Shown: piece after piece, positions 38,167 to 43,600 of the stretch
Numbering within the stretch: position 1 is the first letter of the stretch
How the letters are laid out: each line of letters begins with the position of its first letter
Source of the DNA: Pedobacter planticolens
GTDB taxonomy: Bacteria; Bacteroidota; Bacteroidia; Sphingobacteriales; Sphingobacteriaceae
Length of the DNA: 64,000 nucleotides
Reading direction: 5' to 3'
NCBI RefSeq assembly: GCF_014172375.1
Contig: NZ_WNXD01000002.1
Coordinates: 1,798,001 to 1,862,000 of the forward strand
Made by a program: the position numbers and the translations under genes
The notes under the pieces: generated by a model
Databases searched by the model: none
Told to the model about the DNA's origin: nothing
The model's input: only the letters and a program-made list of their open reading frames with translations

Positions 38167-38174
38167 TAATTTTG
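38167..38174 (+). promoter_or_regulatory. -7 promoter element of kup
   Basis: TAATTTTG matches TAnnTTTG and lies 18 nt before the GTG at 38193. Its presence argues against the overlapping in-frame TTG (38172) as start codon. Confidence 0.5.
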
Positions 38175-38192
38175 CAGTCAAATTTTATAGCA

Positions 38193-40154
38193 GTGTCAAA
38201 TCATAAAAACGTTAATGCGCTCACAGCCGGTGGGGTTCTAATCAGTTTAGGGATTGTTTTTGGAGATATTGGTACATCGCCTTTGTATACCTTAAATGCA
38301 ATATTCAAGACAATTTTAGGAGATAAGCAACTAGTTACAGCAGATATTGTATTAGGAGTACTTTCTTGTATCATTTGGACTTTAACCTTACAAACTACTA
38401 TTAAGTATGTAATTATTACGCTAAGAGCCGATAATAAGGGTGAAGGTGGTATATTTTCACTTTTCTCGCTGGTGCGTAAAAAGGCTAAATGGCTAGTTAT
38501 TCCTGCCATTGTTGGTGGTTGTGCGTTATTGGCCGATGGTATTATTACCCCAAGTATTACTGTAACATCTGCTATTGAGGGATTAACGAATAAGTTTTCC
38601 CATATTCCGGTGGTATATGTAGTAATTGCCATTTTGAGTATCCTTTTTATCATCCAACAGTTTGGCACTAACCTAGTGGGTAAGCTTTTTGGTCCCGTAA
38701 TGTTTGTGTGGTTTGCAGTTTTGGGTATTGTTGGTATTTCATTTATCATTAAAGACTTCAGTATTCTGAAAGCCTTAAATCCTTATTATGCTATTCATCT
38801 ATTAATTAACAATAATATTGCGTTTATTATACTTGGTGGTGTTTTTCTATGTACTACTGGGGCCGAGGCTTTATATTCTGATTTGGGACATTGCGGTCGA
38901 AATAACATTAGAATTAGTTGGATTTTTGTTAAACTTACCCTAATTCTTAATTATTTGGGACAAGGTGTATGGATATTGCAAAACGCAAATAATTATATTC
39001 CTGGCGCAAAAATGAACCCGTTTTTTCAAATTGTACCTGAGCAGTATCAAATTGCAATGGTTATTTTGGCTACTATGGCGGCGGTTATTGCTAGTCAGGC
39101 ATTAATTAGCGGTTCGTTTACCTTAATTGCCGAGGCAGTTAGACTTAACCTTTGGCCAAAAATCCGTATCGTTTATCCAACTACTTCAAAGGGGCAATTA
39201 TATGTGCCATCTATCAATTTGATGTTATGGATTGGATGTTGCAGTATTGTATGGTTTTGGGAAAAATCAGAAAAGATGGATGCAGCCTATGGTTTATCTA
39301 TTACTATTGCAATGTTAATGACTACTATTTTGGTAAGTTATTATTTAAAAATCAAGCGGTTTCCCAAATACATTATCGCCATATTTATTACGGTTTATGT
39401 GATTATTGAAGGCACCTTTTTAGTAAGTAATCTTCATAAATTTATGGAAGGCGGTTGGTTAACTGTATTAATCGGTTCCTGCTTATTTACAGTAATGTGG
39501 AGTTGGTATGTGGCCAGAAAAATTAAAAATCGGTTTGTTAAATATGTAGAGATTGAAGACTATTTTCAAATTATTAGCGAGTTAAGTGATGATATTTCTG
39601 TGCCTAAATATTCATCGCAATTGGTGTATTTAACCAGTGCTAACTTTAAAACAGAGATCGAATCGAAAATTATATATTCGATTATACAAAAGGAACCTAA
39701 ACGTGCCGATGTGTATTGGTTGGTACACGTTGATGTAGTAGACGAGCCCTATACGAGAGATTACAAGGTAGAATTTTTAATTCCTGGTAAATTGATACGT
39801 ATAGATTTTAAGTTAGGTTTTAGGGTAGAGCAAAGAGTAAATCTTTTATATCGTAAAGTAGTTGAAGAATTGGTGAAAAATGGGGAAGTAGATATTACAA
39901 GTCAATATTCGTCTTTAAATAAACATAAAATAGCTGGAGATTTTCGTTTCGTACTATTAGAAAAACAACTTTCTAAATTTGCAAAATTAAGTTTCTATGA
40001 ACGTTCAATAATGGATTATTACTTTCTTTTAAAGCACTTTAGTTTATCAGAAGTGAGTGGTTTTGGTTTAGATTCAAGTTATGTAGATGTTGAAACCGTT
40101 CCGTTAATTTTTGTTACACCTGATGATATAGAATTGAATAGATTGGCTGTTTAG
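38193..40154 (+). CDS. kup: Kup-family potassium uptake transporter
   Basis: A ~653-residue K+/H+ symporter of the KUP/HAK/KT family. The start of the first helix, GGVLISLGIVFGDIGTSPLYTL, is the family signature; about twelve hydrophobic helices follow to residue ~430, and the last ~200 residues are a soluble cytoplasmic domain. Other typical parts are LRADNKGEGGIFSLFSLVR and GALLADGIITPSIT-like CALLADGIITPSITV. GTG at 38193 is chosen as start: it lies just after a -7 promoter box and directly before SNHKNVNALTAGG. It imports potassium for turgor and pH control. No operon partner. Confidence 0.95.
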   Translation: MSNHKNVNALTAGGVLISLGIVFGDIGTSPLYTLNAIFKTILGDKQLVTADIVLGVLSCIIWTLTLQTTIKYVIITLRADNKGEGGIFSLFSLVRKKAKWLVIPAIVGGCALLADGIITPSITVTSAIEGLTNKFSHIPVVYVVIAILSILFIIQQFGTNLVGKLFGPVMFVWFAVLGIVGISFIIKDFSILKALNPYYAIHLLINNNIAFIILGGVFLCTTGAEALYSDLGHCGRNNIRISWIFVKLTLILNYLGQGVWILQNANNYIPGAKMNPFFQIVPEQYQIAMVILATMAAVIASQALISGSFTLIAEAVRLNLWPKIRIVYPTTSKGQLYVPSINLMLWIGCCSIVWFWEKSEKMDAAYGLSITIAMLMTTILVSYYLKIKRFPKYIIAIFITVYVIIEGTFLVSNLHKFMEGGWLTVLIGSCLFTVMWSWYVARKIKNRFVKYVEIEDYFQIISELSDDISVPKYSSQLVYLTSANFKTEIESKIIYSIIQKEPKRADVYWLVHVDVVDEPYTRDYKVEFLIPGKLIRIDFKLGFRVEQRVNLLYRKVVEELVKNGEVDITSQYSSLNKHKIAGDFRFVLLEKQLSKFAKLSFYERSIMDYYFLLKHFSLSEVSGFGLDSSYVDVETVPLIFVTPDDIELNRLAV

Positions 40155-40215
40155 GTTAACACGGTTTTTAACATTAAGGAATTAAGAAAATTAAGTCTTT
40201 AGGTAGGCGAAAATC

Positions 40216-40342
40216 TTGTCATTCAGAGCGCACTTGTCATTCAGAGCGCAGCGAAGAATCTCTATTAATCTTTATAAAGAAAGCCGCAGATATGCAGATT
40301 GTCATCCTGAGCGTAGTCGAAGGAAATCTGCGTATCTGTGGC
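40216..40342. repeat. Composite repeat A plus hairpin, left copy
   Basis: A partial TTGTCATTCAGAGCGCA (40216-40232) is followed by a full 35-bp module (40234-40268), a 14-nt spacer, and a hairpin with 16-bp arms (GCCGCAGATATGCAGA, 40283-40298; TCTGCGTATCTGTGGC, 40327-40342) around a 28-bp loop reading TTGTCATCCTGAGCGTAGTC and on. The same arrangement recurs at 41495-41603 with the loop inverted. Confidence 0.88.
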
Positions 40343-40356
40343 TTAATAATTTAAAG

Positions 40357-41400
40357 CTAACCAACCACTTTTTCTAATCCCAGTTTCTTTAAAAGAAAAA
40401 TAAGTAGACTAGAAATAGCAAGGCAAGCTATAGTGGTAATCGGAATGCCGAATACTGGGCCAAAAACAGCACCATTTAAACCATATTTATTTAAGTAGTA
40501 AAGCACTAGCATATGGATAAAATAGATGCCGAAGCTATGCTTATTAAGAAATTTTCTAATTGCTTTTAATGTCGAATTTGTACTATTTGTATGCTTAATA
40601 AATAGAAACAAACCTACAGCTGCAAGTATTACATTTGGCGAAAAATAGGTATATAGATCTATTCTAAAATGACCATTGTATGTTGATAGAAAATAGGTGC
40701 CAAATATGGTTAATAAGACACCGGATGCAAAAATGAGAAGAGAAATGGTTTTGATATGTTTTACATTTTCGAAATTTCTCACTGATAAATAATAGCCTAA
40801 AACGATGTAACCAATAAAACCTCCGAAATACTTTAAATTAAAATCGGGGATATAATTTGAAAAAATAGGTAATGCGATTAGTACTGCTATCAGCCATATT
40901 ACAAGAAAATAAACTAGCTCATTTTCTTTTGCATTTTTAATCCATTTTGAAATGATGGGAATGAATAAATAAATACCAATAATCATGTAGATATACCAAA
41001 AATGGTAGGTTATTTTATAACCAAAAGCACTAGATGATATGGTTAGCATTTTGAAAATTGGTAATTCAAATCCTTTTTTAAGGATGAATAAAATATGAAT
41101 GGAATAAACTGCAATCCAAAAAAGAAATGGGAAGATTATTCTTGCTACTCGTTTCTTTAAATAATCATTTAACTGGTAATCTTTAGGCAGTAATAAAGCT
41201 CCAGTAATCATTACAAATACGGGAACACAAAATCTCACCAAACTATCATAAACATTGGCAGTCCACCAATTAAAGCCAGAAATTTTAGTGAATTTGTATA
41301 GAAATGGGGCCGCGACATGCAGGAATATTACACCTATTGTGGCAATAACTCTTAAATTGTCTAGCCATGAAGTGTCATCTTTTACTTTAAAGTCGCTCAT
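40357..41400 (-). CDS. Membrane acyltransferase (acyltransferase 3 family)
   Basis: A ~347-residue polytopic membrane protein of the acyltransferase 3 (OafA/WecH-like) family, which transfers acetyl or other acyl groups to sugars of surface glycans. The signature is near the N-terminus: SWLDNLRVIATIGVIFLHVA, containing the conserved His. About ten transmembrane helices follow. The ATG at 41400 is chosen because the upstream in-frame TTG lies in a -7 promoter box (TATCTTTG). No sugar-pathway genes are adjacent. The gene is bracketed by two copies of a ~120-bp repeat, which suggests duplication or transfer of the segment. The acceptor is unknown. Confidence 0.88.
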   Translation of the reverse strand: MSDFKVKDDTSWLDNLRVIATIGVIFLHVAAPFLYKFTKISGFNWWTANVYDSLVRFCVPVFVMITGALLLPKDYQLNDYLKKRVARIIFPFLFWIAVYSIHILFILKKGFELPIFKMLTISSSAFGYKITYHFWYIYMIIGIYLFIPIISKWIKNAKENELVYFLVIWLIAVLIALPIFSNYIPDFNLKYFGGFIGYIVLGYYLSVRNFENVKHIKTISLLIFASGVLLTIFGTYFLSTYNGHFRIDLYTYFSPNVILAAVGLFLFIKHTNSTNSTLKAIRKFLNKHSFGIYFIHMLVLYYLNKYGLNGAVFGPVFGIPITTIACLAISSLLIFLLKKLGLEKVVG

Positions 41401-41409
41401 TCTTGCCAG

Positions 41410-41417
41410 CAAAGATA
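41410..41417 (-). promoter_or_regulatory. -7 promoter element of the acyltransferase gene
   Basis: TATCTTTG on the minus strand, 9 nt before the ATG at 41400, so the mRNA leader would be only a few bases long. Confidence 0.5.
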
Positions 41418-41494
41418 CTTATTTGAAGATTAAACCACATAGATACATAGTTCTTAGGCCTATCTGTCGGCATCTAATCGATCAAAATTAAGCT

Positions 41495-41603
41495 TTGTCA
41501 TTCAGAGCGAAGCGAAGAATCTCTATTAACTAATATAATAAAAGCCACAGATGCGCAGATTTCCTTCGACTACGCTCAGGATGACAGTCTGCGCATCTGT
41601 GGC
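41495..41603. repeat. Composite repeat A plus hairpin, right copy
   Basis: A 35-bp module (41495-41529) in the same orientation as the left copy, a 14-nt spacer, then perfect 16-bp arms (GCCACAGATGCGCAGA, 41544-41559; TCTGCGCATCTGTGGC, 41588-41603). The 28-bp loop between them (41560-41587) is the reverse complement of the loop at 40299-40326 except for its final base. Confidence 0.88.
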
Positions 41604-41650
41604 ATAATAATTTTAAACCTATTGGTTAGGTCTCAGCGACCGAAATTAAA

Positions 41651-43600
41651 CTATCCTTCAGCCTGTTGCTGCCCTAATTTACTATTGTGAAAACCATAGG
41701 CGAAGTAAACCACCAAACCAACTACCAACCAAATTCCAAAACCTATCCAATTAGAAATACCTAGCTCACACATCATGTATAAGCAGCTCAATAAGCCCAA
41801 TACAGGTATTAATGATAAGTTTTTAGTAACGCAATAATACGTAATGACTAAACAGATAACTAAGAAAATCCACATTGGAATTTTGTGCTTAAATAAGCCC
41901 CAGCCACTTTCGTATTTCTTATCGAATGAGATGGTTGATTTGGTCATGAATTCATCGTACTGCGCAGGTGTTAGGCTATTTAAATAAGCCTCAGCATCAA
42001 TCTGTTTTCCTTGTAATACCACAGGGCTTGCACTGATTTCCTTTTTAACAGTTTCTAATTCTGGAGCAGATAACGAAGTGATAAACGGAACAGCGCTATT
42101 TACTTTTGTTTTGTTAATGATAAAATCAGTTGTTTCTTCTTTATATTTTGTGAATGCTACTGCTAGTACTACAATAAATGCAACAGGAATAATGAATTTT
42201 GAATTTGCGTAAGGTATTTTGAACTTCCCTCTTTGTACACCTGGTCTATTTTGTAACACCAATACACCAGCGCAAACCAATACGAAGGCGAATAAAGTAC
42301 CGATAGAGCATAAATCTGTTACGATAGTTAAATTCATAAATAACGATGGAACCGCTACTACAAAACCTACCACGATAGTTGCAAAAGATGGAGTTTTATA
42401 CTTTGGATGTATTTTAGAGAATTTTTTAGGTAATAAACCATCGCGGCTCATGCTCATCCAAATACGTGGCTGACCCATTTGAAAAACCAATAACACACTC
42501 GCCATGGCAAATACTGCGCTCACCGCAATAATACCGCTCATTAATTTGAGGTCGATAGCATCAAACACGAATGCCAATGGATCACCTACGGCCAACGTAT
42601 CCGATTTTACAATGCCCGTTAATACCAAAGCAATGGCAACATATAAAACCGTACAGATAATAATTGCCCACATCATCCCTCTGGGTAAATCTCGCTGTGG
42701 ATTTTTACATTCTTCGGCAGTAGTAGAAATCGCATCGAAACCTATGTAAGCAAAAAACACAGCCGAAACTCCTTTTAGTACACCTGAAACTCCGTTTGGT
42801 GCAAAAGGATTCCAATTTTTAGTATCAATATAAAAAACACCGACTGCTAAAACCAATAAAATAACGGCCAATTTTACCACTACCATCGCATTACTAGCAT
42901 TTCTAGATTCTTTCATTCCGCGATAAACTAACCACGTAATAAAGATGATAATGCCTAATGCTGGTAAATCTGCCACTAGGTGGAAGTTTCCAATTTTAGG
43001 AGCGGAAGTCCAAGCATGATTTGCAATACGAGTTGCATCATCTAAATTAGCCATGCTTTTACCCGCATTTAATAAGGCGTCAGCATGTTTATGGCCATTA
43101 AAAGCGGTTAAATAGTCCATTGTAGCCCAATCGGGGATATTTATACCGTCTATACCTAATGCCGGTATTCGGATGGAGGAGAGTAATCCTGTAAAGTAAT
43201 CGGACCATGAAATAGCTACTGTGATATTACCAATGGCATATTCCATAATTAACGACCAACCAATAATCCACGCCACTAACTCGCCAAAAGCTACATAAGA
43301 ATACGTGTACGCACTACCAGAAACTGGAACCATTGAGGCAAATTCTGCATAGGCAAAAGCGGCAAAACTACAGGCTACTGCAGTAAAAATAAATAAGAAA
43401 ATAACTGCCGGACCGCCATCTGCACTTGCTTTACCTATGGTACTAAAAATACCAGCACCAATAATGGCAGCAATACCAAATGCTGTTAAATCTCTTACTC
43501 CTAAGGTTTTATGTAATGAATCTCCGTGGTCTCCATATCCTTTTGCAGCATCTTCTAAAATTTTGCTAATGGATTTCTTTCTAAATAGTTTGTCGAACAT
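41651..43600 (-). CDS. APC-superfamily amino acid permease
   Basis: A 649-residue membrane transporter of the amino acid-polyamine-organocation superfamily, closest in pattern to cationic amino acid transporters. The N-terminal helix TAFGIAAIIGAGIFSTIGKA has the GAGIF unwound motif, and EFASMVPVSGSAYTYSYVAF and VFFAYIGFDAISTTAEECKN are family signatures. About fourteen helices are likely. It is longer than the usual ~470-500 residues because of a ~60-residue loop after helix 4 (around residue 150-205) and a ~90-residue hydrophilic loop (about 490-580) before the last helices. The substrate is unknown. It stands alone on the minus strand. Confidence 0.93.
   Translation of the reverse strand: MFDKLFRKKSISKILEDAAKGYGDHGDSLHKTLGVRDLTAFGIAAIIGAGIFSTIGKASADGGPAVIFLFIFTAVACSFAAFAYAEFASMVPVSGSAYTYSYVAFGELVAWIIGWSLIMEYAIGNITVAISWSDYFTGLLSSIRIPALGIDGINIPDWATMDYLTAFNGHKHADALLNAGKSMANLDDATRIANHAWTSAPKIGNFHLVADLPALGIIIFITWLVYRGMKESRNASNAMVVVKLAVILLVLAVGVFYIDTKNWNPFAPNGVSGVLKGVSAVFFAYIGFDAISTTAEECKNPQRDLPRGMMWAIIICTVLYVAIALVLTGIVKSDTLAVGDPLAFVFDAIDLKLMSGIIAVSAVFAMASVLLVFQMGQPRIWMSMSRDGLLPKKFSKIHPKYKTPSFATIVVGFVVAVPSLFMNLTIVTDLCSIGTLFAFVLVCAGVLVLQNRPGVQRGKFKIPYANSKFIIPVAFIVVLAVAFTKYKEETTDFIINKTKVNSAVPFITSLSAPELETVKKEISASPVVLQGKQIDAEAYLNSLTPAQYDEFMTKSTISFDKKYESGWGLFKHKIPMWIFLVICLVITYYCVTKNLSLIPVLGLLSCLYMMCELGISNWIGFGIWLVVGLVVYFAYGFHNSKLGQQQAEG

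Follow-up and report, generated by a model that had tools for sequence, protein, structure and literature searches.

Two repeats of about 120 bp flank an acyltransferase gene of Pedobacter planticolens in the same orientation, and they differ in one conspicuous respect: the segment between the arms of an inverted repeat points one way in the left copy and the other way in the right copy. This raises the question of how one loop came to be turned, and of whether such a pair of direct repeats serves to move the gene that lies between them. The window, i.e., the whole stretch of 64,000 nt that was analysed, which spans positions 1798001-1862000 of contig C2 in a 4.06-Mb genome (G000), was therefore assessed together with the rest of that genome and other genomes of the genus. 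The structure is real, non-random and mostly explicable: small repeats of known kinds are nested in a composite, and one loop is turned. Each copy consists of three dispersed repeats, namely, a REP tagged with TGTC (REP_B), the host palindrome, whose arms are 18 nt long, and a second REP (REP_A), which fills the palindrome loop flush in both copies. The features are, in window coordinates:

38172 to 40154, + strand: K+ transporter gene (Pfam K_trans, K_trans_C), converging on the left repeat
40215 to 40232, + strand: truncated extra start of REP_B directly beside the left copy, an 18-nt direct repeat at 100% identity
40234 to 40268, + strand: left REP_B module (core 40236-40262, tail CTCTATTAA), member of a genome repeat family, 34/35 identical to the right module
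40269 to 40282, + strand: left AT-rich spacer of 14 nt, 8/14 identical to the right spacer
40283 to 40298, + strand: left 5' arm of the host palindrome, belonging to the arm family AGCCRCAGATNNRCAGAT
40299 to 40326, + strand: left loop of 28 nt with REP_A on the + strand (exact core 40301-40324)
40327 to 40342, - strand: left 3' arm of the host palindrome, an inverted repeat with the left 5' arm
40343 to 40355, + strand: right-hand end of the left unit, 11/13 identical to 41604-41616
40357 to 41412, - strand: acyltransferase gene (Pfam Acyl_transf_3), between both repeats and outside the element
41495 to 41529, + strand: right REP_B module
41530 to 41543, + strand: right AT-rich spacer of 14 nt
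41544 to 41559, + strand: right 5' arm of the host palindrome
41560 to 41587, - strand: right loop, i.e., the flipped loop, with REP_A on the - strand (exact core 41562-41585)
41588 to 41603, - strand: right 3' arm, a perfect 16-bp inverted repeat with 41544-41559
41604 to 41616, + strand: right-hand end of the right unit
41651 to 43600, - strand: amino acid permease gene (Pfam AA_permease_2), with the right repeat 3' of the gene

Both copies share one unit of 122 nt, which was aligned without gaps (40234-40355 with 41495-41616). As they stand, the copies are identical at 92 positions, and this number rises to 108 when only the right loop is reverse-complemented; the loop itself matches at 11/28 positions as it stands and at 27/28 when turned. 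The twin repeats, their coordinates and the inverted loop, all of which had been reported in a sequence-only reading of the window, thus hold. The repeat length of about 120 bp given there was nearly right, the similar stretch being slightly longer than 40234-40342 and 41495-41603, and it has sharp ends, with only 1/10 and 2/10 positions identical immediately beyond. The likeness of the loops is not a matter of chance, because the best other match to the 28-nt loop in the window, on either strand, reaches only 19/28. That both copies have the same 16-bp arms is only approximate: between copies, the 5' arms are identical at 13/16 and the 3' arms at 15/16 positions, and the right arms pair perfectly while the left arms mismatch each other at two positions. 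A T-G mismatch is found in the right stem, immediately inside the 16 bp. When folded as single-stranded DNA, both hairpins score far better than shuffles (z -7.2 and -6.7). The loop had been described as a piece of a GTCATCC family, and this was confirmed by the exact 24-nt REP_A core GTCATCCTGAGCGTAGTCGAAGGA inside both loops.

The left copy is situated between the convergent transporter and acyltransferase genes, and the right copy downstream of the permease gene. We take the transporter to be of the Kup type. It had been proposed that direct repeats around one gene could support its excision or duplication, and two observations would suit a cassette that mobilises the acyltransferase gene: the gene sits between direct repeats that are 1261 nt apart, and its occurrence is patchy, with a match in 23 of 99 genus genomes, seven of which (its own included) reach at least 55% identity. 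The loci of relatives argue otherwise. An acyltransferase homologue adjoins the same transporter gene without these repeats in one genome (G016), and a different REP-bearing stem occupies the corresponding place in another (G085), where REP_A, with another small palindrome inside it, lies within an unrelated AT-rich stem between the transporter and the acyltransferase homologue. Relatives lacking the gene at that place carry no scar either: no arm or REP match was found within 500 nt downstream of the transporter (423 nt, up to the contig end, for one of them) in 27/27 relatives without an adjacent acyltransferase, these being taken from the best 30 loci among 144 genomes matched with the transporter. 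Moreover, the same kind of composite stands singly at C1:2040954 and C2:753701. A cassette is therefore very unlikely, and this reading was rejected after the order of the three genes (transporter, acyltransferase, permease) had been compared in relatives. No support was found for repeats that move or excise the gene, which corrects the idea that a gene is carried by twin repeats of this kind; those seen here are intergenic and dispersed.

Each of the three components has a distribution of its own. The host palindrome consists of AGCCRCAGATNNRCAGAT, a loop and the inverse arm, with 106 arm matches in the genome at up to 3 mismatches, and its strict form occurs in 27/145 genus genomes. Within the stretches sampled, 48 palindromes were curated (loops up to 60 nt, arms with up to 3 mismatches; a few three-mismatch places fall outside the sample), and their loops measure 3-56 nt. 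A 107-nt loop with REP-like pieces (L044) exceeds this loop limit. Two identical host palindromes with the same loop stand 179 bp apart at G000:C1:1928176-1928403, perhaps as a tandem duplication. By crude ORF calls at the 21 loci with 1.5-kb flanks, the gene context is tandem in 15, convergent in five and divergent in one, and the 3' end of a gene adjoins the palindrome in 20/21. TTTT is present within 9 nt of the stem at 23/48 palindromes. Taken together, gene context and T-runs suggest that the host palindromes are probably transcription terminators or RNA 3'-end hairpins. A consensus terminator scan, whose 8-nt loop limit leaves out full hairpins, gave one weak match in the left repeat (40284-40297, - strand, within the 5' arm) and none in the right, and a search for known RNA families returned sub-threshold matches only. 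The variable dinucleotide of the arms is the same in both arms at 27/48 loci vs 567/2256 between-locus comparisons, and none of 10000 permutations was as high; selection on the stem and template switching would both do this, and the concerted arms and T-runs cannot separate the two.

REP_B, with a consensus of about TTGTCATTCAGAGCGNAGCGAAGAATCTCTA, is a repeat family of this genome. A 118-nt query has at least 53 genome matches, at least 48 of which include the REP_B module and 44 the module alone, all of these counts being lower bounds since 40/148 candidates were scored. Several copies are arranged as inverted pairs. The window holds four full copies, at 2752, 6468 (- strand), 40236 and 41497, next to the truncated one at 40215. 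The tag reads TTGTC at the start of 22 rows (as does the query itself), the module is mostly followed by CTCTA and so has no CCA tail, and crude ORF calling places it inside an ORF at 1/19 loci.

REP_A has 22 matches in its own genome (up to 2 mismatches to a degenerate form of the core), and the exact core is present in 45/145 genus genomes. It starts with GTC (GCC in 1/22), preceded by T, C or another base, and is followed by TCTTT, other sequence or a host arm, i.e., not by a CCA tail. None of 17 loci places it inside an ORF according to crude ORF calling. The genome matches divide 17 to 5 by contig strand, and the GC skew of the sampled loci gives no clear replichore boundary. When the genome was scored for arms and loop orientation, REP_A was found in the loops of 6/48 palindromes and on either strand (four on the listed strand, two on the other; one with an inserted stretch). 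Five of the 22 genome matches lie in palindrome loops vs about 0.005 expected for uniform placement (48 loops making up 959 nt of 4.06 Mb), a value that serves as a yardstick only, as placement in the genome is not uniform. Four of the six REP_A-filled palindromes are linked to REP_B, namely, both window copies and the composites at C1:2040954 and C2:753701, and REP_A runs in the same direction as REP_B in three of these four; only the right window copy is flipped.

The remaining 42 of the 48 palindromes have loops without REP_A, which are mostly AT-rich to the eye. Two genomes with the same order of transporter and convergent acyltransferase genes (G037 and G087) carry the host palindrome right after the transporter, where its loop is plain, AT-rich, 12 nt long and free of any REP, and a third (G036) has a related stem, not the same palindrome, at the matching place. 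A strict arm-plus-REP_A junction was found only in G000 among 145 genomes; a looser composite pattern was found in P. polaris alone, in a contig scan that may omit the own genome or very near ones. A widespread stem that rarely contains REP_A suggests, without proving it, that REP_A came second, and judging from the matching loci the stem is probably older than the REP_A within it.

The association of REP_A with hairpin loops extends beyond this palindrome. Among 138 sampled exact cores, 45 lie flush in an inverted repeat (score at least 8, arms starting 0-3 nt from the core), vs 0/138 when the flanks were shifted outward by 20 nt and 43/1380 (about 3%) when they were shuffled in 10-nt blocks. 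The sample comprised 26/26 cores of G037, 11/11 of G087, 27/30 of G085, 14/16 of G011, 11/11 of G093 and 11/15 of G031, together with those of G000 and one locus per genome elsewhere, and similar paralogues were kept within the 45. Earlier controls gave 7/22 for REP_A vs 12/4537 random positions and 19/462 swapped flanks, and, in a larger set, 39/123 vs 0.33% for random positions (n = 4487) and 3.2% for flanks swapped between sites (n = 4000). REP_B, used as comparator in the own genome, is flush in 0/32 cases. The 45 flush sites fall into 11 host-stem clusters, some evidently of one family. The hosts include the window palindrome, AT-rich stems, and an asymmetric hairpin whose inner arms read CTTTTT/AAAAAG. 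Of the 22 rows caught for this last host, a reading by eye gave 18 with REP_A forward, 3 with it reversed and 1 unclear, a count that covers only sites whose arms fit the marker; composite copying plus occasional flips or independent entries would give this.

Some further arrangements of REP_A were seen. A second repeat family of approximately CCCGATTGNAGYGRAAATCCTTTTT - loop - AAAAAGATTGTARCGGAAAGCGGG (L187-L213 in G000; relatives e.g. L290 and L235) has outer arms that appear to covary (CGGG/CCCG, CCTG/CAGG) and a loop that often holds REP_A or other REP variants, in either direction. Tandem REP_A-type cores with periods of 52 and 45 bp are present at G048:C1:102124-102303 and 321902-322060, respectively. 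Four REP_A copies occur within about 1 kb at G085:C27:272742-273782 (L301-L304), each between CATCAAAAAA and TTTTTTGA stems. The G085 locus between the transporter and acyltransferase genes (L130) is a nest of three levels, with a CCTGCCTGC/GCAGG-type palindrome in REP_A, which in turn lies in long AT-rich arms.

How, then, was the loop turned? The sequence-only reading had considered two routes: either the arms recombine and invert the loop, or a small element inserts independently into a hairpin that is itself conserved. A small element in a conserved hairpin proved to be the correct anatomy, and both accounts of the loop survive in part. The preferred account, to which a probability of about one half is given, is that one composite was duplicated and that an event at the hairpin, or a template switch, then inverted one loop at the arms. 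We infer that both window copies would descend from one composite in which REP_A and REP_B ran the same way, as they do in three of the four linked composites. Of the two routes, inversion at the arms explains more economically why the copies differ. It is favoured by the gain in identities upon turning the loop alone and by the arms, perfect over 16 bp on the right and with two mismatches on the left, as a template switch would leave them. Against this account stand the low spacer identity (only 8/14) and the T-G mismatch just inside the 16 bp of the right stem. The two composites may also have been assembled separately, because REP_B-like modules also adjoin palindromes without REP_A (e.g., L027 and L116).

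The main rival is that no inversion took place and REP_A entered both palindromes independently and in opposite directions, through an activity that places it at hairpin tips, for which a single-strand transposase of the Y1/HUH type would be one candidate and copying from a different REP another. This is possible at best. The excess of flush REP_A cores over all controls and over REP_B, their spread over 11 clusters, the two orientations in the CTTTTT/AAAAAG host, and a REP_A-filled loop of the same palindrome family in P. polaris all speak for it; however, two separate events would be required, REP_B and the spacer length would have to match independently, the CTTTTT/AAAAAG host is mostly filled one way, which suits composite copying with rare flips, and 0/3 Y1-type matches have REP_A, REP_B or arms within 1.5 kb. 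A broader form of loop entry, which we regard as doubtful, would make REP_A a miniature mobile element whose target is the tip of a DNA hairpin, reached via single-stranded DNA at the replication fork through a putative activity. It would enter the loops of unrelated palindromes or terminator-like stems in either direction and leave no loop remnants, and the flipped window loop would be one trace of loops being repeatedly entered or turned. Against such homing stand the 93/138 sampled copies that lack such arms, and the flush count includes retained paralogues and AT-rich flanks that raise the background (3% in shuffles).

These 93 copies also weigh against REP_A being a conserved apical cap, i.e., a protein- or RNA-binding loop whose flush arms are ancestral, whose stems drift quickly, and whose flips are tolerated because it works on either strand. 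The sampled cores were chosen for an exact core and yet have widely differing arms, as a cap would predict, but the stem exists without REP_A at the 42 palindrome sites mentioned above and the core alone folds no better than shuffles, so that this account is improbable. Least probable of all is phase variation, with inversion of the loop acting as a regulated on/off switch. It would suit a short sequence that is enclosed by inverted repeats and faces opposite ways at the two sites, and the flipped loop is overlapped at its end by a promoter-like match (41581-41608); nevertheless, the region holds 6 promoter-like matches vs a mean of 8.2 in shuffles, no recombinase is apparent among the 11 ORFs of this stretch (three proteins run against Pfam), and the enclosed sequence forms the core of a REP that is dispersed.

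For the preferred account, i.e., duplication followed by inversion at the arms, the following sequence of events may be envisaged. An ancestral composite with REP_A parallel to REP_B would have been copied to both sides of the acyltransferase gene, and the sequence enclosed by the arms of the right copy would later have been inverted in place. The likeliest mechanism would be template switching at the hairpin during replication, in which the polymerase pairs the two arms with each other, uses the wrong strand as template for the loop and then returns to the original one. Such a switch would invert the loop and leave the arms perfectly complementary, like the right arms; recombination at the arms or at a cruciform would give the same product. 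The flip is expected to be neutral, because a turned loop leaves the stem intact, and its most likely origin is a neutral accident of copying at a hairpin, not a device that moves genes. We infer the flip since no locus was found in both loop states among the genomes compared (one per species), the nearest relative found reaching only 81% DNA identity over the transporter query. Among the flank comparisons listed, there was no clear pair of orthologous REP_A loci in opposite orientation between genomes, and the inverted pairs seen there looked like paralogous composites or shared neighbouring repeats.

A search for a cognate transposase of REP_A or REP_B, which covered the Y1 family only, was negative. 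G000 contains three PF01797 (Y1-type) matches, one of them below the Pfam cut-off, and when every position was scanned no REP_A, REP_B or arm was found within 1.5 kb of any of them. The arrangement by which a REP/REPIN mobilised by a RAYT is recognised, i.e., the same REP flanking a Y1 gene in the genome, was thus absent for REP_A and REP_B. Both of the two matches that were examined for flanking hairpins have different ones on either side. A RAYT-like gene of the Y1 type, encoding 175 aa (L032, 1329-1991), is flanked on both sides by GTTCGAGATG...CATCTCGAAC hairpins, one arm pair having a mismatch; a 207-aa Y1-type gene (L033) lies between hairpins at 1096-1126 and 1769-1799 with identical 13-bp arms ACTTTGTCAATCT...AGATTGACAAAGT. 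The loop of one L032 hairpin holds AGCGAAGCG, a motif that is also present in REP_B.

The closest known relatives of these repeats appear to be the CGTC-tagged REPs, which Di Nocera et al. 2013 (PMC3733652), in the parts of that work drawn on here, describe as a superfamily of short intergenic palindromic repeats that start with CGTC, often TGTC, have A-T at the first two stem positions, occur in Bacteroidetes and Chlorobi among other phyla, and seem to be without a dedicated transposase. The Y1-type genes without flanking REP_A or REP_B agree with this last point. REP_A and REP_B resemble the superfamily in beginning with (T)GTC-AT, in line with its tags (CGTC, TGTC/CCTC), and in having many intergenic copies. 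Unlike CGTC-tagged REPs, which have stems of 8-9 bp whose first two pairs are A-T, their stems are interrupted by mismatches, although outer AT pairs are possible; the CCA that forms the unpaired tail is lacking, and REP_A lies flush inside other inverted repeats in a third of the sampled copies. Kinship rather than membership is claimed, because the stems hold mismatches and the isolated window cores fold no better than shuffles (z 0.13 and 1.22). Atypical structures beside Y1 genes of Bacteroidetes are mentioned in the part of PMC6006769 drawn on here, and the corresponding part of PMC12306157 does not mention Pedobacter. As far as the accessible text goes, no description of a REP flush in the loops of other palindromes in Bacteroidetes was found in the open-access PubMed Central literature. 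If REP_A does target hairpin tips, this would bear on the spread of CGTC-type REPs.

A precedent for insertion at such a position is offered by REP-targeting insertion sequences, e.g., ISPsy8, which, according to the section of Tobes and Pareja 2006 (PMC1525189) used here, inserts at the symmetry axis of the predicted REP hairpin. There, however, full insertion sequences enter REPs, whereas here a 24-nt REP is located inside other palindromes and an enzyme is hypothetical.

For inversion at the arms, the nearest parallels are hairpin loop inversions, some of them in bacterial rRNA, which are attributed to template switching in PMC8794818. As far as the portion of that study used here goes, template switching also keeps the arms complementary, loop-altering events are called rare, loop inversion alone is enriched over simulation but not enriched when combined with a compensatory change, and inverted rRNA loops are typically 4 nt and up to 7-8 nt long, a microRNA case also being given. 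The window pair is like these inversions in that one loop is the reverse complement of the other state (27/28) and the right arms are complementary at 16/16 positions. It differs from the rRNA cases in having a 28-nt loop and a 16-bp stem, and in that the comparison is between diverged paralogues, not between the branches of a tree. Chloroplast spacers, e.g., trnH-psbA, likewise show small inversions at stem-loops, which are tied to palindromic sequences and occur also within species, judging from the parts of PMC2903610 and other reports used here; they belong to plant organelle DNA, and these parts make no mention of a REP in the loop. If the loop was turned at the arms, the window would preserve a natural and still legible record of how a hairpin loop is inverted, the loop being longer than in the rRNA cases of PMC8794818, and about 48 comparable hairpins in this genome could be scored by strain sequencing.
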